From: Nitrospirales bacterium
GTDB taxonomy: Bacteria > Nitrospirota > Nitrospiria > Nitrospirales > UBA8639
Direction: 5' to 3'
Assembly: GCA_022824735.1 (NCBI GenBank)
Contig: JAJDZI010000056.1
Span: 1-40,523 of the forward strand
Length of the DNA stretch: 40,523 bases
The position numbers were made by a program, and so were the translations under genes. Every line of letters starts with the position of its first letter. Within the stretch, counting starts at the first letter, position 1. This document shows positions 8,666 to 24,923 of the stretch, piece after piece. Below the pieces are notes generated by a model. That model did no database searches. It was not told the DNA's origin and saw nothing but the letters and a program-made list of their open reading frames with translations.

Positions 8666-8763
8666 GGGGCCACATTGCCTTGACACCCTCAGTTCAGGTT
8701 GTTATAAACGCGGGTTGTTGCGTGACAGGAGATTCGAGGATTTTATCACCAGGAGGAATATCT

Positions 8764-9552
8764 ATGAGGACTCGTCAGTTATTTACGTTGTGCCTTGGTG
8801 GATTGCTGGTTGCAATGCCACTGATTGCTCAAGCCGGCGGAACCATCAAGGGAAAGGTCACGTATTCCGGCAAGCCCGTTCCGCCAAAAGAATTTGCCTT
8901 TTCCAAGTTTCCCAATCCGGCCTTCTGCAAACAGAATCCCAGCCAAAAGGGGGATGACACCCGGTTGCTGAAGGAAGTCGAAGTGGACGGCAGCAAAGGG
9001 CTCAAGAACGCGATCGTGTCGGTGCGCGGGATTAAGGACAAAGGCTTCAAGACGACGCCGACCGTGATCGCCAAGTTGTGTGAGTTTCTGCCGTTTACCG
9101 GCGTGTTGGTGAACAAGGGCAACTTCATCGTGGAAAATACCGATGCGGACGCCAATGATCCCAAGTCCAAGGAAGGGGTATTGCATAATCCCCATAGCTT
9201 CGACGTGTTGGGCGCGAAATCTTCGACCCTGTTCAATATCGGGTTGGCCAAGAAAGGCGACAAGCTGGACAAGAAGATCAAGATGCGGATGGCCAGGAAG
9301 GGTTCCGTGCTTCGTTTGCAATGTGACCAGCATGAGTTTATGCAAGCCTGGTACCTGCCCGTAAGTAACGGTCATTTTGGCGTGTCCGGCGGCGACGGGT
9401 CTTTTGAGATCAAGGACGTTCCCGCAGGCAAGCACAAGGTTCTGGCCTGGCACCCGGTGGCGGGAAACGTGACCGTGGAAGTCGAAGTGAAGGACGGCGG
9501 GACCGTTGAAGCCAACTTCGACATCAAAAAGAAAAACAAGTTCAAAATGTAA
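8764..9552 (+). CDS. exported cupredoxin-like/carboxypeptidase-regulatory domain protein
   Basis: The start is the ATG at 8764, after AGGAGGAAT. Residues 1-24 form a Sec signal peptide (LGGLLVAMPLIAQA). The mature protein resembles periplasmic cupredoxin-like proteins fused to a carboxypeptidase-regulatory-like beta domain. Candidate copper ligands are H141/H144 (VLHNPHSF) and C187, H190 and M193 (LQCDQHEFMQAW). The following GDGSFEIKDVPAGKHKVLAW is the typical regulatory-like repeat. It may act as a small periplasmic electron carrier or copper-binding protein serving the respiratory chain next door, but no experimental function is known for this form. It is a single-gene unit closed by the strong terminator at 9581-9616. 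Confidence 0.75.
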   Translation: MRTRQLFTLCLGGLLVAMPLIAQAGGTIKGKVTYSGKPVPPKEFAFSKFPNPAFCKQNPSQKGDDTRLLKEVEVDGSKGLKNAIVSVRGIKDKGFKTTPTVIAKLCEFLPFTGVLVNKGNFIVENTDADANDPKSKEGVLHNPHSFDVLGAKSSTLFNIGLAKKGDKLDKKIKMRMARKGSVLRLQCDQHEFMQAWYLPVSNGHFGVSGGDGSFEIKDVPAGKHKVLAWHPVAGNVTVEVEVKDGGTVEANFDIKKKNKFKM

Positions 9553-9580
9553 CAACGTCTTTCCTCTTTGCAGTCGTGAA

Positions 9581-9616
9581 AAGGGCGGCAACGGTTCAAT
9601 CGTTGCCGCCCTTTTT
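9581..9616 (+). terminator. intrinsic terminator after the cupredoxin-like gene
   Basis: A perfect 13-bp stem AAGGGCGGCAACG / CGTTGCCGCCCTT with a 7-base loop is followed by a T run. It lies 28 bases downstream of the stop codon at 9552. Confidence 0.92.
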
Positions 9617-9775
9617 CTTGCGTTCGCCGGTTCTTGCCCGTTACTATTTCAATAGACTTTCCTTGGCTGCCCCCCTCACCCTACCCCCCGATTAAAGATG
9701 TCGGGGGCTTCGCCTAATTTCAAAGTGGGGGGAGAGGGTTTTCTGAGTTGTTCGTTCCCGGAGAAAGGACTGGTT

Positions 9776-10786
9776 GTGCCTCGGGAGCTCTCTCTCGCAG
9801 AAATATTTCAGATCGGATATTACTGGGAGACGAAAATTCTCCTCACGGCGATCAAGCTGGATCTTTTTTCGGCTTTGGACGGCCGGTCAGATTCGCCCTC
9901 TGACCTAGCCAAGCGTTTATCTCTGGATGAACGGGCGTTGAGCCTCGTCTTGCACGCATTGGTAGCGATGCGGATCCTGACCAAACACGAAGGGCGCTTT
10001 GCAAATACCAGCGTGGCCCGGAAGCACCTGGTGAAGGTCAGCCCGGATTACGTGGGTCATCTGCTGGTTCTGCACGACTCGGAATGGATGAATTGGGGAA
10101 AACTGGAAGAGGCCGTCCGGACCGGCGCGTCTCCGGTCCGGCAGCACGTCTTTGAGACCGACCCGGAGATGGGCGCCAACGTGTTGGCGGTGTTGGACCG
10201 GATCGGCCGGGGGAGCGGCGTCACCCTCGCGAAGGTGCTGCAACTGAACGGCGTGGACCGGATGCGGATGCTGGACGTCGGCGGGGGAGCCGGGACCAAT
10301 GCGATTGCCTTTTGCCGGGAGTATCCCCATCTCAGCGCCACGGTGTTTGATCTGCCTGCAACCCTCCAGGTGACCGAACGGTCGATCAAGGAAGCCGGGT
10401 TGGAGGATCGAATTGCCGTCATGCCGGGCAACTTCAATACGGATTCATTGGGCGGTCTCTATGACCTGGTGCTTTTGTCCGACGTGCTCCATTACCAGGA
10501 CGCGCAAGCCAACGCCGCATTGGTGCGCAAGGCGTTTGCTCACCTCGCGGACGCGGGCCGGTTGGTCATCAAGGACCGGTTTTTGGATCCGGATCGAACG
10601 AGCCCGGCTTGGACTACGGCCTTTGCCGTGCATATTCTGGTCAATACGGAACAAGGGGATTGCTTCACGACCCGGGAGGCGATGGATTGGATGACCCGGG
10701 CCGGTTTTTCTTCCGTCACGGAACTGGAACCACGGGCGATTGTTCAAGGAATCAAAGGTTCCTCAAATCAGGAGAGAATTCAATGA
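9776..10786 (+). CDS. SAM-dependent class-2 (O-)methyltransferase
   Basis: The GTG at 9776 (GGAGAAAGGA upstream) is chosen because the frame further upstream translates a CCCTCACCC-type repeat. The 336-aa protein has an N-terminal winged-helix dimerisation domain (AIKLDLFSALDGR, LSLDERALSLVLHAL) and a C-terminal Rossmann domain with the SAM-binding motif MLDVGGGAGTNAIAFCREYP and the acidic VFDLP. Downstream SDVLHYQDAQ and GRLVIKDRFLD are typical of the family that includes acetylserotonin O-methyltransferase and the bacteriochlorophyll methyltransferase BchU. The substrate is unknown. Its stop overlaps the start of the DUF420 gene (ATGA), and it heads the oxidase copy 1 operon, so quinone or tetrapyrrole modification is an attractive but unproven role. 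Confidence 0.82.
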   Translation: MPRELSLAEIFQIGYYWETKILLTAIKLDLFSALDGRSDSPSDLAKRLSLDERALSLVLHALVAMRILTKHEGRFANTSVARKHLVKVSPDYVGHLLVLHDSEWMNWGKLEEAVRTGASPVRQHVFETDPEMGANVLAVLDRIGRGSGVTLAKVLQLNGVDRMRMLDVGGGAGTNAIAFCREYPHLSATVFDLPATLQVTERSIKEAGLEDRIAVMPGNFNTDSLGGLYDLVLLSDVLHYQDAQANAALVRKAFAHLADAGRLVIKDRFLDPDRTSPAWTTAFAVHILVNTEQGDCFTTREAMDWMTRAGFSSVTELEPRAIVQGIKGSSNQERIQ

Positions 10787-11499
10787 CCGAATGGTTACGA
10801 GAGCCGGGGTTTGTGGGGACGCATGCGACCATGGGGGCCGATATCAGTCAGTTGATGGCCACGTTGTTCACCGGGTTGTTTATCGTTGGGATGATCCAGG
10901 CCAGAAAGGGTCGCGCGGACGGTCATCATTGGTTGATGCTCGGCGGGATGATTGCCATGCTGGCCTTTTTCGTCAGTTATTATTTGTTTCGCCAGCTTGG
11001 CGTGTTGGCGTTTGAAGGCAAGGAGGGGTTCGGCGGGTCGCAGGCGTTGTACGACAACGTGTTCGTACCCCTGTTGACCTTTCACATTCTTCTGGTCGTG
11101 ATCGGGTTGGTCATGGCTATTTACATGATTGTCCTGGGATTTCGCTCTCAAACGTTTATCAACGGCCGGCGTCAGTTGCAAGAGGCCATCCTGCAAACCA
11201 CCGGAAAAAAAATAGCCGCCATCTTTGGCGGAGTGACGGCGCTCGTGTTGCTGTTGTTTTTCAGTCGCGTGGCGGCCAGCGGTTTTTCCATGGGGAAATT
11301 CGGCGTCTATCTCGGACTCCTTATCCTCATTGCCCTGGTGTTCGGTGTCGAGGTGGGCATTCAACGTTTGTGGCCGAATGGGGCGCGACGACACCGGATC
11401 CTGGGGCGGTTTACCATGGTGGTGTATTGCGTGTTGTTCCTGACCGGCAGTGTGACCTATACCATGCTGTATATCTTGTATCCCGGACGGATCGGATAA
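10783..11499 (+). CDS. DUF420-family membrane protein (oxidase assembly type)
   Basis: The start ATG at 10783 overlaps the methyltransferase stop. The 238-aa protein has about six TM helices. Conserved-looking histidines sit near the membrane faces: H14, H48/H49, H101 and H204 in the ARRHRILGR motif, which is the signature of DUF420. DUF420 includes the Staphylococcus protein CtaM, required for maturation of a haem-copper quinol oxidase, and related proteins occur in many oxidase operons. Its position upstream of bd-like oxidase copy 1 supports a role in building or inserting that oxidase's cofactors. That role is inference from family and context. Confidence 0.78.
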   Translation: MTEWLREPGFVGTHATMGADISQLMATLFTGLFIVGMIQARKGRADGHHWLMLGGMIAMLAFFVSYYLFRQLGVLAFEGKEGFGGSQALYDNVFVPLLTFHILLVVIGLVMAIYMIVLGFRSQTFINGRRQLQEAILQTTGKKIAAIFGGVTALVLLLFFSRVAASGFSMGKFGVYLGLLILIALVFGVEVGIQRLWPNGARRHRILGRFTMVVYCVLFLTGSVTYTMLYILYPGRIG

Positions 11500-11506
11500 C
11501 CCCGTG

Positions 11507-11986
11507 ATGCGCTGTGCCTGTGGCTCGGATTTCCGATGTGAAGCCCTTGAGGAATGGGACGAGGCGCAGGTCTTTCTGCGCTATTACTGTGAACCGTGTG
11601 GGTTTCGTGTGGGAATCGAGACGGACCATCGAGCGGGCGGCGCATTGTTTGACCGTCCGGCCTGGACGGATGAGGCCCGGCATCGGTTGGACCGGCTTCC
11701 CCCGTACGTGGAGCCTCTTGTCCGGCGGGACGTGGAAGATTATGCGAATCGAAACGGTTTCACCGTGATCTCGACCGGCGTCATGACGGAAGCCGGTACC
11801 CAGGGGATGGTGTCCTGGCATCCCGAGGCGAAGCAACGGTTGTCGCGCGTGCCGGGGCCGGTTCGCGCGATGGCGCGCGTGGAGTTGGAGCGGACGGCCC
11901 AGGACAGGGGCCTCCCCGAAGTGACGGTGGAGTTGATGGAAGAAATCAAGGCCCGCTATTTCGGCATGGCCGCCCCGCGGGGGTGA
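11507..11986 (+). CDS. Cys-rich protein with two PCP_red-like domains
   Basis: The N-terminus carries a cysteine cluster (C3, C5, C11, C28, C31) that looks like a zinc-binding or Fe-S knuckle. It is followed by two tandem copies of a small helical domain: WTDEARHRLDRLPPYVEPLV (residues 53-72) and WHPEAKQRLSRVPGPVRAMA (104-123). The second continues with EVTVELMEEIKARYFGM. The motif (W/P)-x-EA-xx-RL-xRVP-xxVR resembles the PCP_red domain found at the end of light-independent protochlorophyllide reductase subunit B and in stand-alone proteins. The function of the stand-alone forms is unknown. It starts 7 bases after the DUF420 gene. A GTG 3 bases upstream is an alternative start. Confidence 0.68.
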   Translation: MRCACGSDFRCEALEEWDEAQVFLRYYCEPCGFRVGIETDHRAGGALFDRPAWTDEARHRLDRLPPYVEPLVRRDVEDYANRNGFTVISTGVMTEAGTQGMVSWHPEAKQRLSRVPGPVRAMARVELERTAQDRGLPEVTVELMEEIKARYFGMAAPRG

Positions 11987-12005
11987 GGCGCGAAACGTCT
12001 CCGGA

Positions 12006-12081
12006 GGGCAGGCACAGGGGCCTGCCCCTACAAATAATACGGGCTCTCCCCAGTCGTAGGGGACGGCCCCTGTGCCGTCCC
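12006..12081. repeat. 76-bp inverted repeat inside the oxidase copy 1 operon
   Basis: The arms at 12006-12031 (GGGCAGGCACAGGGGCCTGC...) and 12056-12081 are inverted copies with about four differences over 26 bases. They enclose an AT-richer 24-base centre. It fills most of the 115-base gap between the PCP_red-like gene and the next gene. The strong predicted RNA hairpin could reduce expression of the distal genes. Confidence 0.75.
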
Positions 12082-12101
12082 GAATGAATTGAGAAATTCC
12101 G

Positions 12102-13190
12102 ATGCTGCATCGACTGGCACTCCGGGTGATTCCCCAACTGAACGCGATCGTGACGGAACCCGGCGTTCGCCGGCGCAAGCGCTGGGTGATGCTCGCTCCG
12201 GGGTTTGTGGCGTTTGTCCTCTATCGTCTCTTGAAAGACGTGCTGCCCTTATCCGACCCGCTGGCGTTGTTGGCGTTCAGCGGCGTCCTTTCGACGCTCA
12301 CCGCGTATTGGGCCTATGCGATGGGACGCGGGGAGCCGTTGCTCCGGATTTGCCGGACCGATCACCCACGTCGTCTTTTCTGGATCGGCGGATGGATCGG
12401 GTTCGTCTACGGCGTGCAACTTTCGTTGCTGGTGCTGGCGATCCTGGCGCTCTTTGTCGATTACAATTTCCTGGTTCATCCCGAAGGTCCGGCCATGATG
12501 GCCCTCATCATCCCCTGTACGTCGGTCACTCGTGACGCCTTTGAAATCGGGCACGTGGTTCGGATGGAAGCCCAAGGCGCAAGGCTGGTGACCTTTCCCG
12601 ACGGCGGATCGCTTCGTGAATTGCTTCAACGCGACTGGCTTCATGCGGCCCCATGGGTGGTTACGGGAATCGTCGCCGGCGGGGGCACCGCGGTCCTGTC
12701 CCGGCTCGGCTGGGCCGTCAACGGGGGGGAAGCCGGTCCGGCAATTCTGGTCTGTATCGTGGCGGCATTTTGCGCCCATGGAGCTTTCTTATCCGGGAAA
12801 CGTCCTCTCGACAACTTCCCTGATCGTTTCAGAATAGAGTCGTGGTTGGAAGCCTGCCGGTTTTGGGCGTGGCCGTGTTTGACTTTTGCATTCACATACT
12901 ATTTAGTGCAGTTCGGCCTCATCGCCTTTGTGTTGCGGGTTGAGGACGCGGCCCTTTTCGTTCACCTGGCGGTTGGCGGGGTCACCGCGGGGATGATGGC
13001 CGGGTACGGCTATTTCCTGGGGGCCCGGGTGTTTGTGGAGGCGCAAACGCAAGGCGGTATCTCCGAAGGCTTGAAACGGTGTCCGTTCGTGATGGAAATT
13101 TTAGCCAAAACCGGGTGGGTGACATCGGAACGGAAGGGAGCGCCCGTCGAGATCAGTCAGGGGGAACCTTCACGAGAGATGCTTTCATGA
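12102..13190 (+). CDS. polytopic membrane protein of unknown function
   Basis: The 362-aa protein has roughly seven to eight hydrophobic segments, grouped as residues 30-75, 92-140 and 185-320, separated by a cytoplasmic-looking loop (DAFEIGHVVRMEAQG, residues 149-163). I do not recognise the family. Its stop overlaps the start of the oxidase by 4 bp (ATGA), so the two are almost certainly translated together. A role as partner, assembly factor or extra membrane subunit of oxidase copy 1 is the simplest reading. The predicted ribosome site is weak, and the hairpin repeat at 12006-12081 lies just upstream. Confidence 0.65.
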   Translation: MLHRLALRVIPQLNAIVTEPGVRRRKRWVMLAPGFVAFVLYRLLKDVLPLSDPLALLAFSGVLSTLTAYWAYAMGRGEPLLRICRTDHPRRLFWIGGWIGFVYGVQLSLLVLAILALFVDYNFLVHPEGPAMMALIIPCTSVTRDAFEIGHVVRMEAQGARLVTFPDGGSLRELLQRDWLHAAPWVVTGIVAGGGTAVLSRLGWAVNGGEAGPAILVCIVAAFCAHGAFLSGKRPLDNFPDRFRIESWLEACRFWAWPCLTFAFTYYLVQFGLIAFVLRVEDAALFVHLAVGGVTAGMMAGYGYFLGARVFVEAQTQGGISEGLKRCPFVMEILAKTGWVTSERKGAPVEISQGEPSREMLS

Positions 13191-15037
13191 AAACCGGCCT
13201 GCCTGTTTTCCTGTTGTGCGTGCTGGGTGTTGTGCTTGCCGCGCCGGTGGCGGGGTGGGCCGGTCAGGATGCTGCCGCCCTGACCGAGGACGTCTATTAC
13301 AAGACCGACGGAATCCCTCAAAGCCCTCCGGCCACGGAAACCGGATCCACCTACCCGCAATGGCAACCGCTCAATAACCGGATCATCATCTGGCTCGTCA
13401 CGCAGCAGCATACCTATTTCGGCGGGTTCGTCCTGGCCCTGCCGTTGTTTGCGTTTCTCCTGGAATTATTGGGCCTGACGCGCCGTGATCCACAGGCAGC
13501 CCAACGGTACGACGGCCTGGGCCGCGACATTCTTCGCGTCGGGGTGGTTTCGCTTTCGGTGACGGCCCTGCTCGGCAGCCTGATGCTTGGGGCGTTCATC
13601 ACGTTCTATCCCGTGTTCATGACGTACATGGGGTCCACGTTCAAACAGATGATGCCGTTGTACGCCGCGGTGTTTTTGGGGGAATCCTTCCTCCTGGTGT
13701 TGTACTACTACAGTTGGGACCGCCTGGCCCAAGGCGCGGGGAAATGGGTGCATTTGTCGATCGGGGTCGTGGCGAACGGCATGGGCGTGATGTTGCTCCT
13801 GCTGGCCAATGCCTGGGCGTCGTTCATGATGGCGCCCGCGGGCGTGAACGCCGAAGGCCAATTTCTGGGGAACGTCTGGCATTTGTTGCATTCGCCGTTA
13901 TGGAATCCGCTGAACGCCCACCGGTTCCTGGCGGATATCATGTCCGGCGGGGCCGTTGTCGTGGCCTATGCCGCGTACCGGTTTTTGAAGACTCACGTCC
14001 GGGAGGAGCGGGCCTATTACGATTGGGTGGGGTACGTGTTCATCGTCGTGGTGGTGTGCGCGTTGCTTCCCATGCCCTTTGCCGGATACTGGCTGATGCG
14101 TTCCGTGTTCGAATTCCGTCAGGAGATGGGGATGACCATGATGGGCGGATTGTTGTCCTGGCTGTTCGTGGTCCAGGCCACCACCATCGGCGCGTTGTTT
14201 CTCGGCATCAATTATTACATCTGGCAGTCTCTGGGACGGTTGCGTGACGGGGAACGGTATCATCCTTATTTCAAATTTATTCTCGGCGGGCTGATGATGT
14301 CGTTCCTGGTCTGGTTCACCCCCCATACCATTGCCATGACGCCGAGCGAAATGAAAGCCATGGGCGCGGCGCAACATCCGGTGATCGGACAGTTTGGGGT
14401 GATGTCGGCGAAAAACGGCGCCATCAACGTCATGATCTGCCTGACCGCCTTGAGCTACCTGCTGTATCGTCGCGCCAATCGCATCATGACCGTGCCGTGG
14501 GCCGCGGCGGGAAACGCGGCGATCGGGGCGTTGTTTGCCGTGGGTATCGCCAATATCGTCTGGGTCTCGGTGTACGGGTTTTTCATTCCCGCTCACGTTC
14601 GGGTCGGCCTCTCCATTCCGCAGGGGGCCACCACGGCGACGGTCCTGATCGGGGGGTTGGTGCTCAATCATTTTCTGTTGAAGGGGAGCGAGATTCGGGG
14701 TCCCATCCAATGGGGCGGGATATCCGTGCGCGGGATGGTGGCGTTGTTCGGGGTCGCCGCGACCTTTTCCTGGGTCATGGGGTTGATGGGGTATATCCGG
14801 TCGGCCGGCCGGTTGGGATGGCACGTCAATGAGCTGATGGCCGACGTTTCCCCTTGGGCGTTTACTCCTGCCATCACGTTTGCGGCCAAAATGGTGACCA
14901 TCAACATGGTGTTGTTCTGGGCTTCGGTGTTTTTCATGTTTTGGCTGGCCACCCGGGACAAACGGCCGGCCGTCGTGGAAAAGGACGAACCGGGCATGTC
15001 GTTCGCGCAGGCGTTCTCCCGGGAGGAATCGGTATGA
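13187..15037 (+). CDS. cytochrome bd-like oxidase, divergent copy 1
   Basis: The start ATG at 13187 overlaps the upstream stop. The 616-aa protein has a signal-peptide-like N-terminus, the motif EDVYYKTDG (34-42), then about 13-14 TM helices. The N-terminal half resembles the CydA family of bd quinol oxidases, with H75 in TQQHTYFGGF, E166, H189, H232/H235 and H245 as candidate haem or proton-path residues. The C-terminal half is unlike CydB and has H380 (FTPHTIAMTP), H397 and H546. Such long bd-like oxidases have been reported in Nitrospira as the probable terminal oxidase. Compared with copy 2 at 18701, the core is colinear with a constant 40-residue offset. Three histidines of copy 2 are replaced here: P157, I454 and P561. 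It may have lost a metal centre or changed substrate. DUF420, DUF3047 and FGE-fold genes surround it. Confidence 0.85.
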   Translation: MKTGLPVFLLCVLGVVLAAPVAGWAGQDAAALTEDVYYKTDGIPQSPPATETGSTYPQWQPLNNRIIIWLVTQQHTYFGGFVLALPLFAFLLELLGLTRRDPQAAQRYDGLGRDILRVGVVSLSVTALLGSLMLGAFITFYPVFMTYMGSTFKQMMPLYAAVFLGESFLLVLYYYSWDRLAQGAGKWVHLSIGVVANGMGVMLLLLANAWASFMMAPAGVNAEGQFLGNVWHLLHSPLWNPLNAHRFLADIMSGGAVVVAYAAYRFLKTHVREERAYYDWVGYVFIVVVVCALLPMPFAGYWLMRSVFEFRQEMGMTMMGGLLSWLFVVQATTIGALFLGINYYIWQSLGRLRDGERYHPYFKFILGGLMMSFLVWFTPHTIAMTPSEMKAMGAAQHPVIGQFGVMSAKNGAINVMICLTALSYLLYRRANRIMTVPWAAAGNAAIGALFAVGIANIVWVSVYGFFIPAHVRVGLSIPQGATTATVLIGGLVLNHFLLKGSEIRGPIQWGGISVRGMVALFGVAATFSWVMGLMGYIRSAGRLGWHVNELMADVSPWAFTPAITFAAKMVTINMVLFWASVFFMFWLATRDKRPAVVEKDEPGMSFAQAFSREESV

Positions 15038-15669
15038 AGACGGGACGTCTGCTCGTCGCGTGTCTGTCCCTGTTTGTGTGTTGTGTTCCCATGCTGCCCG
15101 GAACGGCTTTCTCACAGGTCGTGACGCTGGAAAATTTTGAAAGTCCCGATGAAGAGCAGTTCCCGAAAGGATGGGACGGGTCCCGAAGTACGATCACCGC
15201 CAGAGAGGCCTATGCCGTTCACCGGGAAGAGGATACGGCGTTCCTGAAAGGCAAGGGGGCGAACCAGCGTGTGTACACCAAGAACGTTGATTGGGATCCC
15301 CGCACTCACCCTATTCTCACGTGGCGGTGGCGCCTGCACGCCGTCCCGGAGAAGGCGGAATTCCTTGCGGCGGTTTTTGCGAACCTGGATACGGACCTGA
15401 TGTTTATTCCGGTGTCCACGAAGTACGTCTGGAGCGGCACGAAAGCCAAGGGATCGGTCACGGACGGCGGCATGTTCGGCGCGGCGGAGGTGGTGGTGCG
15501 TTCGGGCGCGCAGCCGGTGGGTGAATGGGTGGAAGAAGAGGTCAACGCGTACGAGGATTTCAAGGAGATCCATCAACATGAACCGGCCGAGCGGGCATGG
15601 GGTCTTTCCCTGCAAAGCGGCCCGGGGGTGGAAATCGATTTCGGTTCGATCGAGGTGCGGGCAGAATAA
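15034..15669 (+). CDS. exported DUF3047-family protein
   Basis: The start overlaps the oxidase stop (ATGA). The 211-aa protein has a signal peptide ([20 protein letters not shown]). Its body contains [39 protein letters not shown] and a C-terminal [20 protein letters not shown]. This pattern of a beta-sandwich with a W-x-W core and a closing GSIEV strand is that of DUF3047 proteins. Their function is unknown; the fold suggests carbohydrate-binding-like or protein-binding roles in the periplasm. Tight coupling to oxidase copy 1 suggests it acts on or with the periplasmic face of that complex. Confidence 0.72.
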
Positions 15670-15719: not shown

Positions 15720-16082
15720 ATGATAGACGTCGTCCTTGGCGTGGCGGTCATGGGGACGGTCGGGGTGCTGATCGGCATTCTCCTGGGCGGCTCCTTTCTC
15801 TATTTCGCGTCGGGCCTTGGAGTCCTGTTGGGGGCGGGGATCGGTCTCATTGGCGGACGCCGGTTTTTTCTCGGTATTTTTGTCGGTACGCTTTTGGGGG
15901 GTGCGCTGGCCTGGGCCGTTTCCGGACCGGAAAATATCACGGTCGGCGCGGGGTCCGGCGCGGCGATGGGCGGATTTTTGGGGATTTGGATCTCCATGTT
16001 GATCGACGTGTTTTGGAGAAAACCCGTGCAGGCCGCTCCCGACCACGAAGCGGAGGCGGGGACGGGAAGCGGAGGCGGTTGA
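15720..16082 (+). CDS. small Gly-rich membrane protein
   Basis: The start ATG at 15720 follows AAAGGAACC. Upstream in-frame starts are rejected because they overlap the DUF3047 gene. The 120-aa product has four hydrophobic stretches rich in glycine ([20 protein letters not shown], residues 15-34, then GLIGGRRFF and [17 protein letters not shown]) and a short acidic, Gly-rich tail. Glycine-zipper packing is likely. No family is recognised. It sits between the DUF3047 gene and two membrane-anchored FGE-fold genes, all on one transcript. Confidence 0.6.
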
Positions 16083-16104: not shown

Positions 16105-17028
16105 ATGGAAAATCGCGGGGTGCTGATCGGGTCCATCATCTTTGTGTTTGCTTCGTTCATCCTGATGATGGTGATGCTGATCTATGAAACGTATAAGGGG
16201 CAGCAGGAATTGGACCGGCTGGTATCGAAGTCGCAGACGACCAAGCCCCGGGTCATCGCTCCGGTGAAAGTCCAGGATTTTTCCATGTATCGGACGATGG
16301 TCGGCAATGAAGGCCGTGAGATGGTCGAGATTCCCGAAGGCCCCTTTACCATGGGCAATGATCAGGGCGATCCCGATGAAGCGCCGGCTCATCCGGTGTA
16401 CGTGCGGACGTATTTCATCGATTTGAAGGAAGTCACCCAATCGGAATACGCGCGTTTCGTCAAGATGACCAAGCGGGAGCAGCCCCAGGTGCCGGTTTTT
16501 GAAGAAGACATTGCGAAACTCGTTGACCCGGACTTTCCCGTCGTGGGGATCGGCTGGAACGATGCCTTCGGGTATTGCCGGTGGGCCGGGAAACGATTGC
16601 CGACCGAAGCCGAATGGGAGAAAGCCGCTCGCGGCGAAGGGCGGCGGCTCTACCCCTGGGGGAATGAGTTCAGCTACATGGTTTCCAATATTGACGGGGA
16701 AGAGGACGGGTTTCAATATCTGTCGCCGGTCGGGTCTTTTGAGGGCGGGCGGAGTCCGTATGGGGTTTACGATATGACGGGCAACGTGGCGGAATGGGTG
16801 GCGGATACGTATGATGTCCAATATTATCAGAATTCGCCGTTTCGCGACCCTCCCGGTCCGGACAGTACGGAATTCAAGGTCATTCGCGGCGGGACCTGGC
16901 GCGATTCCAAACTCAACGCGAGATTGACCAAACGGTTTTCGGCCAAAATGTGGCGAACCGACGCGACAATCGGCTTCCGGTGCGCCCAGGACGTCGAGAC
17001 CGCCGAGACTGTCGAACAGGCACCCTGA
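16105..17028 (+). CDS. membrane-anchored FGE-sulfatase-fold protein 1 lacking catalytic Cys
   Basis: The 307-aa protein has an N-terminal TM anchor (VLIGSIIFVFASFILMMVML, residues 5-24), a linker, and an FGE-sulfatase (SUMF1) domain from about residue 70. Family landmarks are present: MVEIPEGPFTMGNDQGDPDE, the GKRLPTEAEWEKAARG motif, LYPWGNEF, SPYGVYDMTGNVAEWVADTY and the closing IGFRCAQ. The RGGTWRDSKLNARLTKRF segment, where true formylglycine-generating enzymes carry a Cys pair, has none, so sulfatase activation is unlikely. Non-catalytic FGE folds serve as binding or scaffold proteins. Its place beside bd-like oxidase copy 1 suggests a periplasmic structural or assembly subunit. Confidence 0.83.
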   Translation: MENRGVLIGSIIFVFASFILMMVMLIYETYKGQQELDRLVSKSQTTKPRVIAPVKVQDFSMYRTMVGNEGREMVEIPEGPFTMGNDQGDPDEAPAHPVYVRTYFIDLKEVTQSEYARFVKMTKREQPQVPVFEEDIAKLVDPDFPVVGIGWNDAFGYCRWAGKRLPTEAEWEKAARGEGRRLYPWGNEFSYMVSNIDGEEDGFQYLSPVGSFEGGRSPYGVYDMTGNVAEWVADTYDVQYYQNSPFRDPPGPDSTEFKVIRGGTWRDSKLNARLTKRFSAKMWRTDATIGFRCAQDVETAETVEQAP

Positions 17029-17064
17029 CGATCCCGGAGCGGGGGCTATTGAGGTTCCGCGCCC

Positions 17065-17979
17065 ATGGACGGAAGACTGAAACTGATCCTGCTTGCCGTG
17101 ATCTTATTCATGGTGGGCATGCCGGTATCGGGCATTCTGCGCGGGACCAAGGCTCCGCCGCCTGACCCCGAACTTGCAGAGGTCGTCGAACCCCTTGGGG
17201 AGACCGGCGATTCCCTGTCCGATCCCTCCCGGCCGATCCTCCCCGAAGACATGGTGTTCATCCCTCCCGGACAGTTCGTCCAGGGGACCAGCCAGGGCGG
17301 GTTCAATGAACGTCCCGAACGTGTCGTGACCCTTGACGGATTCTGGATCGATCGCTATGAGGTCACGAACCACCATTATCTCCGGTTTGTGGAACAGACC
17401 GGACACCGCAAACCCGGTCCTCCTTCCCGCTATGCCAGACGGTTGGCCCAATTGCGCGGGCCCAACCAGCCGGTGGCTTACGTCTCCTGGCATGATGCCG
17501 ATGCGTATTGCCAATGGAGGGGAAAACGCCTACCCGGGGAAGCGGAATGGGAAAAGGCCATGCGGGGGATTGACGGCCGGTTATGGCCCTGGGGGAATTC
17601 TCCGCGAATCCACAAAGCCAACCTGGGCGGGGTGGAGGACGGCTATGAAGCGACGGCGTCGGTTGGTTCGTTCCCATTGGACCGAAGTCCGTATGGTGTG
17701 TACGACGGCTTTGGCAACCTCATGGAATGGACCCATAATTGGTATGAAGAGCAAGTTCGGCATCCCAATGAGCCCGAACCCGAAGAGGCGAATTTTGCCG
17801 ATCGCGGAGGGTATAAGACCCTGCGCGGCGCCGGATATACCAGTTACGGCAACGATTTGCGGATTACAGCCCGGAGTTTCATGGTTCCCGACTTTCGCGA
17901 CGAAACCATAGGCTTCCGCTGCGTGGCGTCAGAGCAAAAACCGTCGGCCCACACGCTTCTCGGAAGTAGCGAAGGCTAA
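17065..17979 (+). CDS. membrane-anchored FGE-sulfatase-fold protein 2 lacking catalytic Cys
   Basis: This is a 304-aa paralogue of the preceding gene, 36 bases downstream. It has an N-terminal TM segment (LKLILLAVILFMVGMPVSGI), a Pro-rich linker, then MVFIPPGQFVQGTSQGGFNE, the GKRLPGEAEWEKAMRG motif, SPYGVYDGFGNLMEWTHNWY and a closing ETIGFRCVASEQ. The segment LRGAGYTSYGNDLRITARSF again lacks the cysteines needed for formylglycine formation. Two adjacent, diverged copies suggest a heterodimer or two distinct docking subunits on the periplasmic side. It is the last gene before a 120-bp hairpin element. Confidence 0.83.
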   Translation: MDGRLKLILLAVILFMVGMPVSGILRGTKAPPPDPELAEVVEPLGETGDSLSDPSRPILPEDMVFIPPGQFVQGTSQGGFNERPERVVTLDGFWIDRYEVTNHHYLRFVEQTGHRKPGPPSRYARRLAQLRGPNQPVAYVSWHDADAYCQWRGKRLPGEAEWEKAMRGIDGRLWPWGNSPRIHKANLGGVEDGYEATASVGSFPLDRSPYGVYDGFGNLMEWTHNWYEEQVRHPNEPEPEEANFADRGGYKTLRGAGYTSYGNDLRITARSFMVPDFRDETIGFRCVASEQKPSAHTLLGSSEG

Positions 17980-18148: not shown

Positions 18149-18253
18149 CTAGAGGAAGTCGAAGTAGTAGAGGATCAGAAAGACGGCCAAAAGAATATTG
18201 ACAACCATTCCGGCCAACACTATAATGTCGAACAATTTTGCGTTATTGCGCAT
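18149..18253 (-). CDS. 34-aa single-TM mini-protein (minus strand)
   Basis: The reverse strand from ATG 18253 to TAG 18149 encodes a short charged start (MRNNAKLFD), one long hydrophobic helix (IIVLAGMVVNILLAVFLILY) and the end YFDFL. The codons are unbiased and the preceding ribosome site is weak (GGTAAG). The clean one-helix layout with charged flanks is nevertheless what a small membrane subunit looks like. It is divergent from the two mini-ORFs at 18357 and 18499. Confidence 0.45.
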   Translation of the reverse strand: MRNNAKLFDIIVLAGMVVNILLAVFLILYYFDFL

Positions 18254-18615: not shown

Positions 18616-18700
18616 GCACTAATCAGTCGTCATTCTGAAAAACGCAACTATAAAGGCTTATTGTTCTTTGAGTAATTTCAAAGAAAGAAGGAGGTTGGTC

Positions 18701-20665
18701 ATGGGTCGCCTCACGAGTGGACGGGCCGGGAAGAAATTTCTGGCAGTCACCGGTCTTTTTGCAATGGGAGCCATGTTGTTGCTCCCGATTTTTGTGGCAC
18801 TGCCGGCGTTGGCCGGCGGGGGTGCTCCCGCAGCAGGCGGGCCGCCTCCGGACGTCGTAGCCGCCCAGGAAGCCGAAGGCGCCGAAGGCGAAGAAGCCAA
18901 GGTCGAAATCGGCAGGGACGTCTACTACAAAACGGAAGGTCCGGTCGTTGGCGCGCCGGCTCCCAAGACTCAAGATACGGCAGAATTTTATCCCCGGTAC
19001 AACTTCGAAAGCCGGGTTCTTCTTTGGGTCGCCAACCAACAGCACCTGTACTATGGCAGCTTTGTGCTGGCCGTCCCGATTTTCTGTATGTGTATCGAGT
19101 TTGCCGGGTTGGTGAGTAAAGACAAGGAGATGGCGAAGAAGTATGACCAATTGGCTTATGACTTCATCAAAATCAGCCTGACCGCGTACTCGCTGACGGC
19201 CATCCTCGGTGGTATTCTCATCTTCACCTTCCTGACGTTGTATCCCGCCTTCTTTGGTTATCTTTCCAGTATTTTCCGTCCCGTGATGCATATCTATGCG
19301 TTGATGTTTGTGGCGGAAAGCGGAACCCTCTACATCTATTACTACGGGTGGGACAAGATGAAAGAGGGGATGTTGAAATGGCTGCACGCCAGCATGTCCG
19401 TCGTGCTGAACGTGATCGGGACGGTGTTGATGTTCCTGGCCAATTCCTGGATCGGTTTCATGATGTCGCCAGCCGGCGTCGATGAGCAGGGCCGGTATCT
19501 TGGTAATATCTGGCACGTGCTGCATACGGCGCTCTGGAATCCATTGAACGTGCACCGGATTCTCGGGAATATGGCTTTCGGCGGCGGCGTGGTGGCGGCC
19601 TATGCCGCTTACCGGTTCCTGTCGGCGAAGAATGATGAGGAGCGCGCGCATTACGATTGGATGGGGTATATCGCCATGGCCCTCGGGGTTGCCTTCCTGA
19701 TTCCCCTCCCGTTTGCCGGCTATTGGCTCATGCGCGAGGTGTATGCCTATCGTCAACAAATGGGTATTACCTTGATGGGCGGGTTGCTGGCCTGGTTGTT
19801 CATCATTCAGGCTACCATGATCGGCATCCTGTTCCTGACGACGAACTACTACCTCTGGCAGGCGCTCGGACGAATGACTGGAGGTGAGCGGTTCCAACGC
19901 TATATCAAGTACTTCGTGTTTATTCTGGTCGTGGGTCTCCTGGTCTTTATTACCCCGCATACCATCGTCATGACGCCGGCTGAGTTAAAGGCCATGGGCG
20001 GTCAGCAGCATCCGGTACTGGGGAACTATGGCGTGATGTCGGCTAAAAACGGCGGCATTAACGCGATCATCATGACCACGATCGCCAGTTTCATATGGTA
20101 TCAACGCGGTAACAGGGTGCCCGCGGTAAAATGGGCGAAGTTCGGGAATATCTTCCTGATCACGTTCTTTGTGGTGGCCCATCTGAACAATATCTGGGTG
20201 GCCTGTTACGGGTACTTCATCCCTGCGAACGTGCGAATCGGTCTCTCGGTTCCACAGGTCGCCGGTACATTGTCCTGCCTGTTTATCGGTTCGGCCTTGA
20301 ACCTGGCCATGTTGAAGCAGTCCAGGGAACTTGGGCCGATCCGGTGGGGTCAGATTGCGCCGCGTTCACAGTATGCCCTGATTATGCTGGCAACGGCCTT
20401 TACATGGATGATGGGACTGATGGGGTATATCCGGTCGTCCGTGCGGTTGTTCTGGCACGTCAATGAGATTATGCGTGACAATTCGCCATGGGCGTACACG
20501 CATACCATTGGTTTTGGGGCCAACGTGATCTCCTTTAACGTGTTGTTCTTCTGGATCACGATCATGTTCGTCTTTTGGCTTGGGGCACTGGGAGCCAAGA
20601 AAGCGCCCGTGCCTGCGACGCAGCCCGTTCCGGGTACCGCGCCGCAACCTGCAACTGGTCATTAA
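18701..20665 (+). CDS. cytochrome bd-like oxidase, copy 2 (probable main terminal oxidase)
   Basis: The ATG at 18701 follows GAAGGAGG. The 654-aa protein has an N-terminal signal/TM segment, an Ala/Gly/Pro-rich periplasmic stretch, GRDVYYKTEG (71-80), then about 13-14 TM helices. Conserved candidates shared with copy 1 are H115 (NQQHLYYGSF), E206, H229, H272/H275, H285, H420 (ITPHTIVMTP), H437 and H586 (FWHVNE). Histidines unique to this copy are H197, H494 and H601, which may complete a metal site. The N-half is CydA-like; the C-half is not CydB-like. In Nitrospira such proteins are proposed to reduce O2. Two mini-ORFs upstream and cytochrome c genes downstream suggest a complex that takes electrons from cytochrome c, not only from quinol; this is inference. 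Confidence 0.88.
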   Translation: MGRLTSGRAGKKFLAVTGLFAMGAMLLLPIFVALPALAGGGAPAAGGPPPDVVAAQEAEGAEGEEAKVEIGRDVYYKTEGPVVGAPAPKTQDTAEFYPRYNFESRVLLWVANQQHLYYGSFVLAVPIFCMCIEFAGLVSKDKEMAKKYDQLAYDFIKISLTAYSLTAILGGILIFTFLTLYPAFFGYLSSIFRPVMHIYALMFVAESGTLYIYYYGWDKMKEGMLKWLHASMSVVLNVIGTVLMFLANSWIGFMMSPAGVDEQGRYLGNIWHVLHTALWNPLNVHRILGNMAFGGGVVAAYAAYRFLSAKNDEERAHYDWMGYIAMALGVAFLIPLPFAGYWLMREVYAYRQQMGITLMGGLLAWLFIIQATMIGILFLTTNYYLWQALGRMTGGERFQRYIKYFVFILVVGLLVFITPHTIVMTPAELKAMGGQQHPVLGNYGVMSAKNGGINAIIMTTIASFIWYQRGNRVPAVKWAKFGNIFLITFFVVAHLNNIWVACYGYFIPANVRIGLSVPQVAGTLSCLFIGSALNLAMLKQSRELGPIRWGQIAPRSQYALIMLATAFTWMMGLMGYIRSSVRLFWHVNEIMRDNSPWAYTHTIGFGANVISFNVLFFWITIMFVFWLGALGAKKAPVPATQPVPGTAPQPATGH

Positions 20666-20732: not shown

Positions 20733-20747
20733 TTGTGGAGGGGCAAA

Positions 20748-22067
20748 GTGGTTGAATTACTTACGGAAGCAATTTCGATTGGATGGCCGGCATTCGCCTT
20801 TTTGATAGGGCTGCTCTTTTATTTTCAAGCCAAAGCGACTGATCCCGCTCAAAAAAAGAATGTCACGTTCAAGACGTTTATCGGCATGTTGTGCGCACTC
20901 ATGGCTTTTATTGCCATTGCGAATTACAAGAATAATTTCTATGGAGAAAGCCGCTTGCTGCCTGTCTCTTTGGTGATGATTACGTTCCTGGCCTATATCA
21001 TGGGCATCTATTTCACCAATATCGGGGCACTCATGAAAATCGGCGGCTTTATGTTTTTCGTGGCTGCGGCCTTGTCCGGGTATGGTAATTGGTTGCCCCA
21101 GGTGGAAGGGGGATTCCCGCCGCCGGAAGTCAAGCTGGACTTCCAGAGCATGACGTCCCAGCAGTTGGGTGACGAGGGCGAAAAGATTATCTTCGGCGGT
21201 CTTGGCCAGAGTAAAGTTCAGGGCGCAATCGGGAAAGGCCAGTGTCCTCTCTGTCACGGTTTCAACCAGGGCTTCCTGAGTGAACGGGCCCCGAATTTGT
21301 GGGACGTTCCTGCTCGAGCCGAAGAACGGTTGAAACACGAAAAATATCATATGAACGATCCGGGTTCGCGTGACACCGTGCAAAAGGAAGCGTTTGAGGG
21401 TTCCGGGACGGCGACGACCGGCCAGGAGTATATCGCCGAGTCTCATGCTTGCCCCAGTTGTTTTGTCGTCCCCGGATTCGGCGTGAAAGGAACGAATGAC
21501 ACGGAAAGCCCGATGCCGAGAATCCATAAGCCACCCATTTCTCTGACTATTGGCGAGTTGGCGGCCGTGGATACGTGGCTGTACGTTCGGGAAGGGAAAG
21601 AAGCGCCGACGTACGAGGAAATTCAATCGTCGTATGAAAAATTCATTCCCGAAGCTGACCGGCCCCAGGCGAGTGCCGAAGGGGATGAAGGCGCCGCCGG
21701 CGGTGTGCTGGCCACTGGTGAAGAGCCGATTACGGACCTCTTCATGAAAGCCGGATGTCCGGCCTGTCATACGATTCCAGGGATTGAAGGGGCAACCGGA
21801 AAAGTCGGTCCCCTCTTGATGGAAGGCAGTAATGCTCCCAAGCGGTTGAAGGATCCGGGGTATGCGGGTCATGCCACGTCGGCTCGTGAATACATTACCG
21901 AGTCGATTTTGAATCCGAGCATGTATGTGGTGAAGGATTTCCCGGATAACCAGATGCCGAAAGATTTCGGACTGAAACTCAGCGCGGGAGCCGTTAATAA
22001 AATCGTGGATTACCTGTCCAGCTTGAAGGAAGGACAGGATTTGCCATCATTGGAAGATTTTAATTAA
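20748..22067 (+). CDS. membrane protein with two cytochrome c domains
   Basis: The GTG at 20748 has GGAGGGG 4 bases upstream. The in-frame TTG at 20733 would sit inside the hairpin and is rejected. The 439-aa product begins with four TM helices (roughly residues 10-28, 42-60, 70-90, 94-112), then a periplasmic part with two c-type domains. Haem sites are CPLCH (166-170) and CPACH (337-341), with probable Met ligands at M256 (SPMPRIH) and M403 (NQMPKDF). A third cysteine pair, C235-P-S-C238-F, lacks the histidine; in the second domain the aligned stretch is NPSMY, so this is an added Cys pair and not a lost haem. The gene lies 82 bases after oxidase copy 2 and probably supplies electrons to it. 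Confidence 0.85.
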   Translation: MVELLTEAISIGWPAFAFLIGLLFYFQAKATDPAQKKNVTFKTFIGMLCALMAFIAIANYKNNFYGESRLLPVSLVMITFLAYIMGIYFTNIGALMKIGGFMFFVAAALSGYGNWLPQVEGGFPPPEVKLDFQSMTSQQLGDEGEKIIFGGLGQSKVQGAIGKGQCPLCHGFNQGFLSERAPNLWDVPARAEERLKHEKYHMNDPGSRDTVQKEAFEGSGTATTGQEYIAESHACPSCFVVPGFGVKGTNDTESPMPRIHKPPISLTIGELAAVDTWLYVREGKEAPTYEEIQSSYEKFIPEADRPQASAEGDEGAAGGVLATGEEPITDLFMKAGCPACHTIPGIEGATGKVGPLLMEGSNAPKRLKDPGYAGHATSAREYITESILNPSMYVVKDFPDNQMPKDFGLKLSAGAVNKIVDYLSSLKEGQDLPSLEDFN

Positions 22068-22107
22068 TCCTTAAACTCTGTGAGTCAGAAAACAGGAGTT
22101 TAATACG

Positions 22108-23073
22108 ATGACCTGGTTAAAGTTAGTCGAAGGCTACATGCCGATGCAGATGATTTCGGAGTTGGCCTGTTCGATTCTGGTGTTTGCGCTGATCAACTGG
22201 TCGCTGAATCGGGCGGGCATGGGCATTCCCAAGTTCTGGGCGGGGGTAGGCGTGTGGATCTACATCCAGCTCTATTTGAAATACCGCATTTATCCGCCGA
22301 TCCCCTTCAGTGTGCGAGCGATTTACGGGACGGTGTCCGCCTGTGGCATTTTCATGTGGGTGTCCGGGTCGGAAGACGCGTGGCAGGAATTCAAGCGGCC
22401 GGTGATCAACGTGATGGATGGCATCAGCGGGTTTCACAAGAGTATGCGCACCGTGGCGTTGATTGTCATTCCGCTGGCGTTGGGCGGCTTTGCCTATAAC
22501 TCGTTCCTGCCCAGTTTTGAAGAACCCATCGAGTTGCGGACCGTGCATCCGGCGCCGCCGGCCACGACGAAAGTGCACGGGAAGACCTTTGTGCTGCAAG
22601 TGGTCGAGAACCCCTATCGAGTGAACAACGAGGGGAAGTACGATCAGGCGTACACGGACGCGCGGATCGTGGAGCAGGCCATGGGGCGGTTGATGAAGGA
22701 CGTGAATGACCCGAATTACAACCCGTGGGATCCCAATGCCGAAGGCTATACCAAGTACGTGCGGGAAGGGGGCGAGATCTTCTTTCAGAACTGCCACTTC
22801 TGTCACGGGGACAACCTGAACGGGCGGGGCTTATGGGCGTACGCCTTCAACCCGATTCCGGCGAACTTCACGGATGCGGGTACGATTGCCCAGTTGCAGG
22901 AGACGTTCGTGTTCTGGCGGGTCTCGAAAGGCGGGATCGGCCTGCCTGGTGAAGGGTTCCCATGGGCCTCGGTGATGCCGCCCTGGGAGCAACACCTGAC
23001 GGTGGATGAAATCTGGAAAGTGGTCATGTTCGAATATTGGCACACGGGCTACTATCCCCGGACCTGGGATTAA
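22108..23073 (+). CDS. membrane-bound monohaem cytochrome c
   Basis: The ATG at 22108 follows ACAGGAG. The 321-aa protein has four hydrophobic helices in its first 130 residues (SELACSILVFALINWSL, FWAGVGVWIYIQLYL, AIYGTVSACGIFMWVSG, VALIVIPLALGGFAY). A periplasmic domain follows, with one haem motif CHFCH (229-233), NLNGRGLW, and a likely axial M290 in ASVMPPWEQHLTVDEIW. The layout parallels the preceding gene, with an N-terminal four-helix part then haem c, suggesting they form a complex together with the dihaem EB_dh protein 23 bases downstream. The function as an electron-transfer subunit is inferred from the haem site and operon. Confidence 0.85.
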   Translation: MTWLKLVEGYMPMQMISELACSILVFALINWSLNRAGMGIPKFWAGVGVWIYIQLYLKYRIYPPIPFSVRAIYGTVSACGIFMWVSGSEDAWQEFKRPVINVMDGISGFHKSMRTVALIVIPLALGGFAYNSFLPSFEEPIELRTVHPAPPATTKVHGKTFVLQVVENPYRVNNEGKYDQAYTDARIVEQAMGRLMKDVNDPNYNPWDPNAEGYTKYVREGGEIFFQNCHFCHGDNLNGRGLWAYAFNPIPANFTDAGTIAQLQETFVFWRVSKGGIGLPGEGFPWASVMPPWEQHLTVDEIWKVVMFEYWHTGYYPRTWD

Positions 23074-23096
23074 GCGGAGAGGAGCGGAGACGAGCC

Positions 23097-24923
23097 ATGA
23101 GCAAGAGCAGATATGGAAGTCACTTGGCCCGGTGGGGCGTGTGCTTGAGCGTGAGTGTGCTGCTGGGGTTGGGGCTGCCCCTGAGCAGTGGCGCACAGGA
23201 AGACCTGCCGGAAGGGTTTAAACAGCAGGGCCTGCCGTCGCCCCCGCCTGCGGAGCAGATCGAGGCAGGCAAGCGAGTCTATTTTACCAAATGTGTGTGG
23301 TGTCACGGCGTGGAAGGGGCCGGGGACGGGCCTGGCGCAGTGCGGTTGTGGCCCCGACCGCGGAACTTCAACGCGGGCACCTTCAAGATCCGGCACACGG
23401 CCAGCGGGCAGTTGCCCCTGATTGACGTGGACCTGCTCCAAACGGTCACGCACGGCCTGCCGGGGTCGGCCATGCCGTCGTGGGAAGGCATTCTCACCGA
23501 ACAACAGCGCAAGGACGTGCTGGCTTTCGTGACCACCCAACTGGTCCAGGATCGGTCGTGGCAGGACGAAGAATTTGAAGAACTCTTTGTGTTGCAGTTG
23601 GATCAACTCGCCCCGAAACAGAACACCCCGGAGTCTATCAAACGGGGTTCTGAATTGGTGGTGGAAAAGAAATGCATCGAATGTCACGGCCTGGAAGGCC
23701 GGGGCGACGGGAACGCGTTCAACCTCAAGGATGACTGGGGCTTTTCCATCCAGCCGGCGGACTGGCACAAATGCTGGAACTTCCGGGGCAGTCGTCAGGA
23801 TCCGTACAATGTCCGGAACATCTTCCGGACCTTCTCCACGGGGTTGAACGGGACGCCGATGCCCTCGTTTGCGGACAATACCAGCGTGGACGAGCGGTGG
23901 GACATTGCCAACTACGTCAACTCGCTGTGTGAGCGGGCCAATGAGATTCCCGCGCCGCAAGGGCAGGTGAGCGATGAAACGGCGCAGGTCTTCTCCACGG
24001 CGGCGCCCTTGCCGATCGACCCGCTGACGGACAAACCGAAGAGTAACTTCGTGATTCCGTCAAAATTCGTGGAAGGGGATCTCCCGACGGATGAAAACGA
24101 CGAGCGGTGGAAACTGATCCCCCGGCGGTGGTTGGCCATGGGCGGACAGATCACGCACAAACCCCGTAATTTCGTGAACCGCATTGACGACATGTGGGTA
24201 CAGGCACTGTATAACGAAACGCATATCGAATTCATGTTCCGCTGGGATGACCGGACCAAGAGCATTCAGGAAGATGAAGTCGACTGGGATCCCACGGAAG
24301 TGAACCTGGGTGACTATGGCGTTGAGGAACAGGCCCCGCAGGGCACGACGTTTGCCGAAGATCCGTTCCATCAGGAATCGATTGCGGCCAAGCAAAAAGA
24401 CGGCTATTCCGTGTATAACGACGGCGTGGCGTTCCAATTCCCTGTCAAGTGGCAGGAACTGCCGGCCCCGCGGAAACCGCGCTACTTCTGGGGCGATGAA
24501 ACGTTCTCGGTGGACCTGACCAAATGGACGGCAGACGGGACCTTGGGCGTGTATGAAGGAACCGGCTGGGACCAGGACCTCACCGAGTTGGACTTCCAGG
24601 AAGAAGTGGAAGTGGTGAAAGCGGAGTGGGCGAATGGCCGCTGGACGGTGATTGTGAAGCGCCCCTTGAAAGGTGACTACGAAGAAGTGGCGTACCTGGA
24701 GGCTGGCAAATACATCCCGATGGTGTTTTTTGCCTGGGACGGGCACAACGGGGACGTGGGCCGGAAGATGGCCGTGTCGGCGTTCTATTATCTGGTGATG
24801 GAGCCGCCGATTCCGTTGACCACCTACGTGTATCCGGGGTTGATCACGGTCGGTATCGTGATTATCGAAGGCTGGGTGTTGGGCCGCCGCGCCAACCGGC
24901 GGAAGGAAAAAGGCCAGGCCTAA
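23097..24923 (+). CDS. dihaem cytochrome c-EB_dh fusion with C-terminal membrane anchor
   Basis: The start ATG at 23097 (GGAGAGGAGCGGAG upstream) gives a Sec signal peptide. Two cytochrome c domains follow, with CVWCH (66-70)/M126 and CIECH (193-197)/M255. From about residue 310 the sequence looks like the ethylbenzene-dehydrogenase-type haem b domain seen in gamma subunits of type II DMSO-reductase enzymes (MWVQALYNETHIEFMFRWDD, DGVAFQFPV, GTGWDQD, RWTVIVKRPL). A C-terminal TM helix (YPGLITVGIVIIEGWVLG) anchors it. Up to three haems could be held on one polypeptide. It could be an NxrC-like haem relay between nitrite oxidoreductase and the oxidase complex. It is the last gene of the copy 2 operon. 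Confidence 0.83.
   Translation: MSKSRYGSHLARWGVCLSVSVLLGLGLPLSSGAQEDLPEGFKQQGLPSPPPAEQIEAGKRVYFTKCVWCHGVEGAGDGPGAVRLWPRPRNFNAGTFKIRHTASGQLPLIDVDLLQTVTHGLPGSAMPSWEGILTEQQRKDVLAFVTTQLVQDRSWQDEEFEELFVLQLDQLAPKQNTPESIKRGSELVVEKKCIECHGLEGRGDGNAFNLKDDWGFSIQPADWHKCWNFRGSRQDPYNVRNIFRTFSTGLNGTPMPSFADNTSVDERWDIANYVNSLCERANEIPAPQGQVSDETAQVFSTAAPLPIDPLTDKPKSNFVIPSKFVEGDLPTDENDERWKLIPRRWLAMGGQITHKPRNFVNRIDDMWVQALYNETHIEFMFRWDDRTKSIQEDEVDWDPTEVNLGDYGVEEQAPQGTTFAEDPFHQESIAAKQKDGYSVYNDGVAFQFPVKWQELPAPRKPRYFWGDETFSVDLTKWTADGTLGVYEGTGWDQDLTELDFQEEVEVVKAEWANGRWTVIVKRPLKGDYEEVAYLEAGKYIPMVFFAWDGHNGDVGRKMAVSAFYYLVMEPPIPLTTYVYPGLITVGIVIIEGWVLGRRANRRKEKGQA

Follow-up and report, generated by a model that had tools for sequence, protein, structure and literature searches.

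A candidate maturation cassette beside a fast-evolving cytochrome bd-like oxidase subunit of Nitrospirales

Nitrospira-type bacteria rank among the major nitrite oxidisers; by what means their respiratory chain reduces oxygen or drives electrons in reverse is an open question. The bd-like oxidases of Nitrospira still lack experimental confirmation (PMC12342949, PMC10839748), and heterologous assembly of Nitrospira membrane complexes has so far failed (PMC12324825). What, then, are four accessory genes doing directly in front of one such oxidase gene? The genes lie in a stretch of 40,523 nucleotides (here called the window), contig JAJDZI010000056.1 of the Nitrospirales bacterium assembly GCA_022824735.1. 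They encode a methyltransferase (MT), a DUF420 membrane protein, a short PCP_red protein (PCP) and a further membrane protein (TM), and they run into the first of two bd-like subunit genes, OX1 and OX2. An initial annotation, made from the letters of the window, described these genes, all of which are present as described, and suggested that they might make a modified haem or quinone for the oxidase. With moderate confidence, and judging from sequence comparisons, we favour the reading that the four genes form a maturation cassette dedicated to the fast-evolving OX1, inserted into an older Nitrospirales locus of OX2, cytochromes c and an alternative NxrC.

The order of the genes is the first piece of evidence. 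A single scan of genome contigs for TM yielded 41 loci, and in these, as far as the contigs reach, the order is fixed: MT-DUF420-PCP-TM-OX1-DUF3047-small protein-FGE1-FGE2-OX2-cytochrome c-cytochrome c-alternative NxrC (FGE, formylglycine-enzyme-like). The presence and order of the genes are not a matter of chance, since that order is conserved in tens of genomes. The operon-like packing is tight in places: MT and DUF420 overlap by 4 nucleotides (nt), as do TM and OX1, and OX1 overlaps the DUF3047 gene as well, at 15034. These junctions bear out the overlapping starts claimed for the operon, whereas DUF420 and PCP are 4-7 nt apart and PCP and TM are separated by 115 nt. Labels of Nitrospira, Nitrospirota or Nitrospirae are carried by 40 of the 41 loci; the exception (L071) is labelled Nitrospinota, is 67-84% identical, and its operon contig is probably misbinned. 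The closest relatives of the source genome are likewise metagenome-assembled genomes labelled Nitrospira or Nitrospirales. The only full-length locus that lacks MT (L050, CP070743.1) was rejected as an exception to the order, the gene being missing only through runs of N at its position. The CP070743.1 entry is a "chromosome" record in which runs of N join unrelated stretches around the operon.

The second piece of evidence is the distribution of the genes in 375 genomes across the phylum, with an MT orthologue defined as a match over 270 bits. TM is found in 137 genomes, 128 of them in the order Nitrospirales and nine in other orders of the class. An MT orthologue is present in 133 of these 137 and in 0 of the 238 others, where the best MT-family scores are at most 242 bits. 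The four TM genomes without MT (G259, G270, G391 and G359) were rejected as exceptions, as their contigs end so that the cluster runs off or MT is cut. In the nine Nitrospiria of other orders, MT and TM are both present and lie at different loci; MT of these nine is orthologous to that of Nitrospirales (support 100/99). In the bd-like tree, exactly those nine hold an OX2-type copy plus a second, divergent and fast-evolving copy; the second copies form one clade, and eight diagnostic residues are common to OX1 and the relatives' second copies. Of the 11 class-level genomes that lack both MT and TM, two, of family f5, are the only ones with an extra bd-like copy in range, and it falls in a separate clade. 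The short PCP_red protein behaves similarly, scoring 170-251 bits only in OX1-operon genomes and about 110 or less elsewhere among 28 class genomes. Three of the four genes (MT, TM and PCP) pass the co-occurrence test and are inherited together with the second oxidase copy.

Could the genes simply share an operon with OX1 through neighbourhood inheritance in one order, with no functional link? The locus is vertically inherited within Nitrospirales, so conserved synteny inside the order counts for little by itself, and DUF420 is more widely distributed. However, the co-occurrence holds in the nine relatives without gene adjacency, and TM, PCP and OX1 change quickly, with about 45-70% identity between families, yet their order never breaks. 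We consider the lack of a functional link very improbable.

Several results weigh against a cassette dedicated to OX1. Of 28 class genomes tested, 27 have exactly one copy of DUF420, whether OX1 is present or not, and because of this class-wide distribution DUF420 cannot be purely OX1-specific; the phyletic linkage of all the accessory genes that the initial annotation envisaged is not supported for this one. In the nine relatives, DUF420 always stands directly after MT, no oxidase comes next and TM is elsewhere. Because these relatives form one oxidase-tree clade, the number of independent co-occurrence events is small. In family f5, a divergent second copy is present in genomes that lack both MT and TM. 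Finally, a single clade uniting OX1 with the second copies of the relatives, as one ancient OX1 duplication would leave, is not established, nor is it rejected (approximately unbiased test, p-AU 0.155).

How the operon came to its present place can be approached through relatives without OX1 (L149 and L150), in which the order is c9-FGE-FGE-OX2-cytochrome c-cytochrome c-EB_dh. Because c9 there stands directly before FGE-FGE-OX2, the OX1 cassette looks as if it was inserted between c9 and FGE1 of an older locus. The features of the locus are collected in Table 1.

Table 1. Features of the OX1 and OX2 locus in the window
Feature	Position	Strand	Remarks
Rho-independent terminator-like hairpin with T tail	9576..9620	+	Between gene 8743-9552 and MT
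MT, Methyltransf_2-family S-adenosylmethionine (SAM) methyltransferase with N-terminal dimerisation domain	9776..10786	+	336 aa
DUF420 membrane protein (CtaM family)	10783..11499	+	238 aa
PCP, short PCP_red protein, zinc-ribbon-like CxC...CxxC and two PCP_red domains	11504..11986	+	160 aa
Imperfect inverted repeat, 21-bp arms	12011..12076	.	PCP/TM gap
TM, unclassified integral membrane protein	12102..13190	+	362 aa; roughly 8 long helices
OX1, cytochrome bd-like oxidase subunit (bd-like_4 type)	13187..15037	+	616 aa; N-terminal signal-like segment
DUF3047 protein, signal-like N-terminus	15034..15669	+	Co-conserved 3' of OX1; 56.3 bits (cut-off 27)
Small hydrophobic protein	15720..16082	+	Co-conserved; frame opens at 15597, likely start 15720
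Two tandem FGE-sulfatase (formylglycine-enzyme-like) genes	16105-17979		Between OX1 and OX2
OX2, older bd-like paralogue (bd-like_3)	18668..20665	+	Locus with two cytochromes c and alternative NxrC
Two cytochromes c and EB_dh/alternative NxrC protein	20733-24923		3' of OX2

Some of these features call for comment. The hairpin upstream of MT was not picked up by a simple scan but by RNA folding, with a fold of -33.3 kcal/mol, a z-score of -6.1 and zero shuffles equally stable. The inverted repeat inside the PCP/TM gap gives 2 matches against 0.02 expected; its exact form occurs only in the source genome's loci, and it is apparently private to that genome. Further downstream, a perfect sigma-70 consensus promoter (TTGACA-17-TATAAT, 12/12) is found at 18198-18226, upstream of OX2, and one or two FGE-sulfatase-type genes accompany OX2 in most of the class genomes seen. 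Another contig of the source genome (G000:C31:22541-34223, mostly L113) holds two more bd-like paralogues, several proteins with heme-c motifs and a UbiA-family gene.

What kind of protein would the cassette serve? OX1 matches Cyt_bd_oxida_I at 54.9 bits (cut-off 26.2). The identification of OX2 and OX1 with the published bd-like_3 and its duplicate bd-like_4 (PMC6606698) rests on gene neighbourhood; the duplication is recorded for all Nitrospira (PMC6606698, PMC3578206). The two have evolved at different rates, with between-family identity of about 65-72% for OX1 versus 83-87% for OX2. OX1 was aligned to E. coli CydA, whose sequence was checked against 6rko. The equivalents of the CydA residues H19, H186 and M393 are kept in 11 of 11 OX1 rows. 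E99 is replaced by Tyr and E445 by Leu, as in OX2, the E445 call being the less certain as the alignment is gappy in the C-terminal half. In the OX1 rows the Q-loop residue E257 corresponds to a gap and K252 is mostly Arg, and the set of E99, E445, K252 and E257 that marks a canonical quinol cytochrome bd is not kept. Since OX1 lacks equivalents of E99 and E445, its second haem site must, going by this alignment, differ from that of E. coli.

A site of this kind brings in the cofactor. One possibility is a cassette for making or handling a methylated tetrapyrrole (haem b/d-derived or chlorin-like) for OX1, with MT acting in the manner of BchU and PCP_red binding the ring. We consider this unlikely. 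OX1 keeps the haem-ligand His and Met equivalents in the setting of the missing glutamates; however, OX2, which many genomes free of the cassette carry, has the same ligand pattern. The methyltransferase itself is well defined as a family member, with 75.8 bits for Methyltransf_2 (cut-off 22.3), 42.9 bits for the dimerisation domain (cut-off 25.6) and a SAM motif kept as DVGGGAGTN. Its start is a GTG, an upstream ATG at 9698 being unsupported by orthologues, and across the orthologues mean column identity is 75%, and all 16 of them keep the LHYQ-motif His. Its best-scoring NCBIfam model is BchU (TIGR02716, bacteriochlorophyllide C-20 methyltransferase), though at 70.7 bits against a cut-off of 276.1, so the BchU/ASMT-type label first given to it holds at superfamily level only. 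The nearest solved relatives are RedM (8tji), 3mcz, DSYB (7wdw) and 22ow, and BchU ranks fourteenth, which counts against a BchU-like role.

PCP_red is the other thread leading to tetrapyrroles. The profile search proposed in the initial annotation gives the short protein 92.4 bits and two domain copies (cut-off 32.5), with a start at GTG 11504 or ATG 11507, and the Cys-rich character noted there comes down to four invariant residues (C4, C6, C29 and C32). The full-length BchB model gives 56.8 bits against a cut-off of 490.35. The domain occurs in the protochlorophyllide reductase BchB and, in the source genome (G000:C73, L115:3801-5159), also forms the C-terminal end of a radical SAM/SPASM protein. 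The best models for the latter are NirJ2 (333 bits) and AhbD (316 bits), both below the cut-off of 500, and similar frames of 450-500 aa with a C-terminal PCP_red match are present in most Nitrospirales genomes. The fusion to a NirJ2/AhbD-like protein is suggestive of a tetrapyrrole link. PCP_red had to be rejected as a clean tetrapyrrole marker, as across the class such proteins also adjoin NUBPL/Mrp-like NTPases, haem-oxygenase-like proteins and, by inspection, universal-stress-like proteins, and this too speaks against the tetrapyrrole account.

One such neighbourhood, seen class-wide (L149, L150, L154, L159, L160 and the source genome's own L114), comprises an NUBPL/Mrp-like NTPase, a Zn-ribbon protein with two PCP_red domains, a haem-oxygenase-like protein and a protein with four PCP_red domains, often near DUF420. 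The operon's PCP looks like a shortened paralogue of the Zn-ribbon protein of this group.

The tetrapyrrole account also requires unproven chemistry, and a role of this sort is kept alive as a possibility mainly through PCP_red. A modified haem b/d or a chlorin for OX1 is possible. The boldest version, that OX1 carries an undescribed methylated tetrapyrrole made by MT and PCP, perhaps with the NirJ2/AhbD-like radical SAM enzyme, is a long shot; if it were true, nitrite oxidisers would have a new type of haem reserved for one of their respiratory proteins.

The other modified cofactors suggested at the outset fare less well. Haem o or a for OX1 is excluded by gene content, because CtaA is found in none of 31 genomes, the CtaB model stays below its cut-off in all 31, and COX1 is absent from the source genome and the four same-genus genomes tested. 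A quinone was the second suggestion, in which MT would be a quinone methyltransferase (adding, for example, one ring methyl of methyl-plastoquinone) and OX1 would react with that quinone. The only quinones of Nitrospira are methyl-plastoquinones, which bear an additional ring methyl (PMC12324825), a modified quinone in a non-phototroph, and Methyltransf_2 includes small-aromatic methyltransferases. However, MT orthologues are missing in the class relatives f4, f5, f6, f8, f9 and f13, and chorismate-lyase-type (PF01947) and UbiA-family genes, often side by side, are present in most of these relatives that belong to other orders. Measured by these markers, MT is not present in every genome with a benzoquinone-type pathway; PF01947 was not detected in the Nitrospirales genomes tested, so the comparison is a proxy. 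Because relatives that lack MT have both genes, MT is not tied to the quinone pathway, and its distribution disfavours a quinone role. The published methyl-plastoquinone pathway is assigned to the UbiA-E-like MpqA-E (PMC13386864). Bd-like proteins of the OX1 sort are described as lacking the quinol-binding residues (PMC3578206), and relatives of the OR-N type are thought to use cytochrome c (PMC10839748). Taken together, a quinone enzyme is improbable.

DUF420 raises the question of metals. The domain scores 62.7 bits (cut-off 30.5), as expected from its first description as CtaM-like, and the protein has invariant H48, H49, H101 and H204 with a mean column identity of 79%. The aa3 oxidases of Firmicutes depend on CtaM, which is tied to a-type oxidases and ctaB in other bacteria (PMC4958251). 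Here, DUF420 does not co-occur with ctaB and an a-type haem-copper oxidase, and it cannot serve an aa3 oxidase in the source organism because CtaA and COX1 are absent and CtaB stays below its cut-off. A recent proposal has CtaM exporting copper for the metalation of oxidases instead of taking part in haem A biogenesis (PMC13344008). The cassette might therefore deliver copper or another metal to OX1, with DUF420 as exporter or metallator and PCP as metal carrier. The invariant Cys of PCP and the invariant His of DUF420 would suit such a task, and a Nitrospira bd-like oxidase has been suggested to hold copper sites (cited in PMC6606698). On the other hand, the copper site in that source was proposed for another paralogue, bd-like_2, the a-type partners of CtaM are missing, and MT is left unexplained. 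Metal delivery appears quite unlikely. The AlphaFold2 model of the DUF420 protein (pLDDT 67.2) is too poor for testing a CtaA-like fold.

TM has no Pfam family over cut-off, in line with its being called an unknown membrane protein. Its AlphaFold2 model (pLDDT 79.7) gave no match with E <= 0.001 in a Foldseek search of the PDB. Distant homologues in Nitrospiria outside the order (L093, L095; G181, G201) stand, by inspection, beside M16-peptidase-, MlaC- and RND-like genes, neighbours that hint at an earlier function connected with lipids or the membrane.

How would a maturation cassette for OX1 work? We infer every biochemical step. DUF420 would carry a cofactor, either a metal or a haem, through the membrane to the apo-oxidase, and the Zn-ribbon/PCP_red protein could be a cytosolic adaptor holding the cofactor or the client. 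TM may be a client-specific membrane partner or an extra subunit, while MT would methylate a small molecule, or the cofactor itself, used in maturation. The co-inherited four-gene set offers definite targets for attempts at heterologous assembly, and through it the question of the cofactor can be put to a direct test.

Each part of the cassette has known counterparts. MT has its family, dimerisation domain and SAM motif in common with BchU, RedM (8tji), DSYB (7wdw) and 3mcz; the LHY motif and the SPAWTTAFAVH...NTE segment are similar in 3mcz, an uncharacterised O-methyltransferase, whereas MT falls short of the BchU cut-off. The C-terminal domain of BchB and other PCP_red proteins have the PCP_red domain in common with PCP, where two copies of it form a stand-alone protein with a zinc-ribbon-like N-terminus and without the nitrogenase-like part. 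CtaM/YozB of Bacillus and Staphylococcus is likewise a DUF420 membrane protein, and here the gene is found beside an oxidase-like gene; the partner, however, is a bd-like protein instead of a haem-copper oxidase, and the protein is 238 aa long compared to the 130 positions of the Pfam DUF420 model. Among the papers searched, none joined at least three of Nitrospira, DUF420, protochlorophyllide reductase, bd-like and O-methyltransferase. As for the locus as a whole, the oxidase pair, the two cytochromes c and the alternative NxrC correspond to those of the published bd-like_3/bd-like_4 locus (PMC6606698, PMC3578206), and what the present analysis adds to the available portions of those accounts is the MT-DUF420-PCP-TM set, its phyletic linkage and the second oxidase copy of the relatives outside the order.

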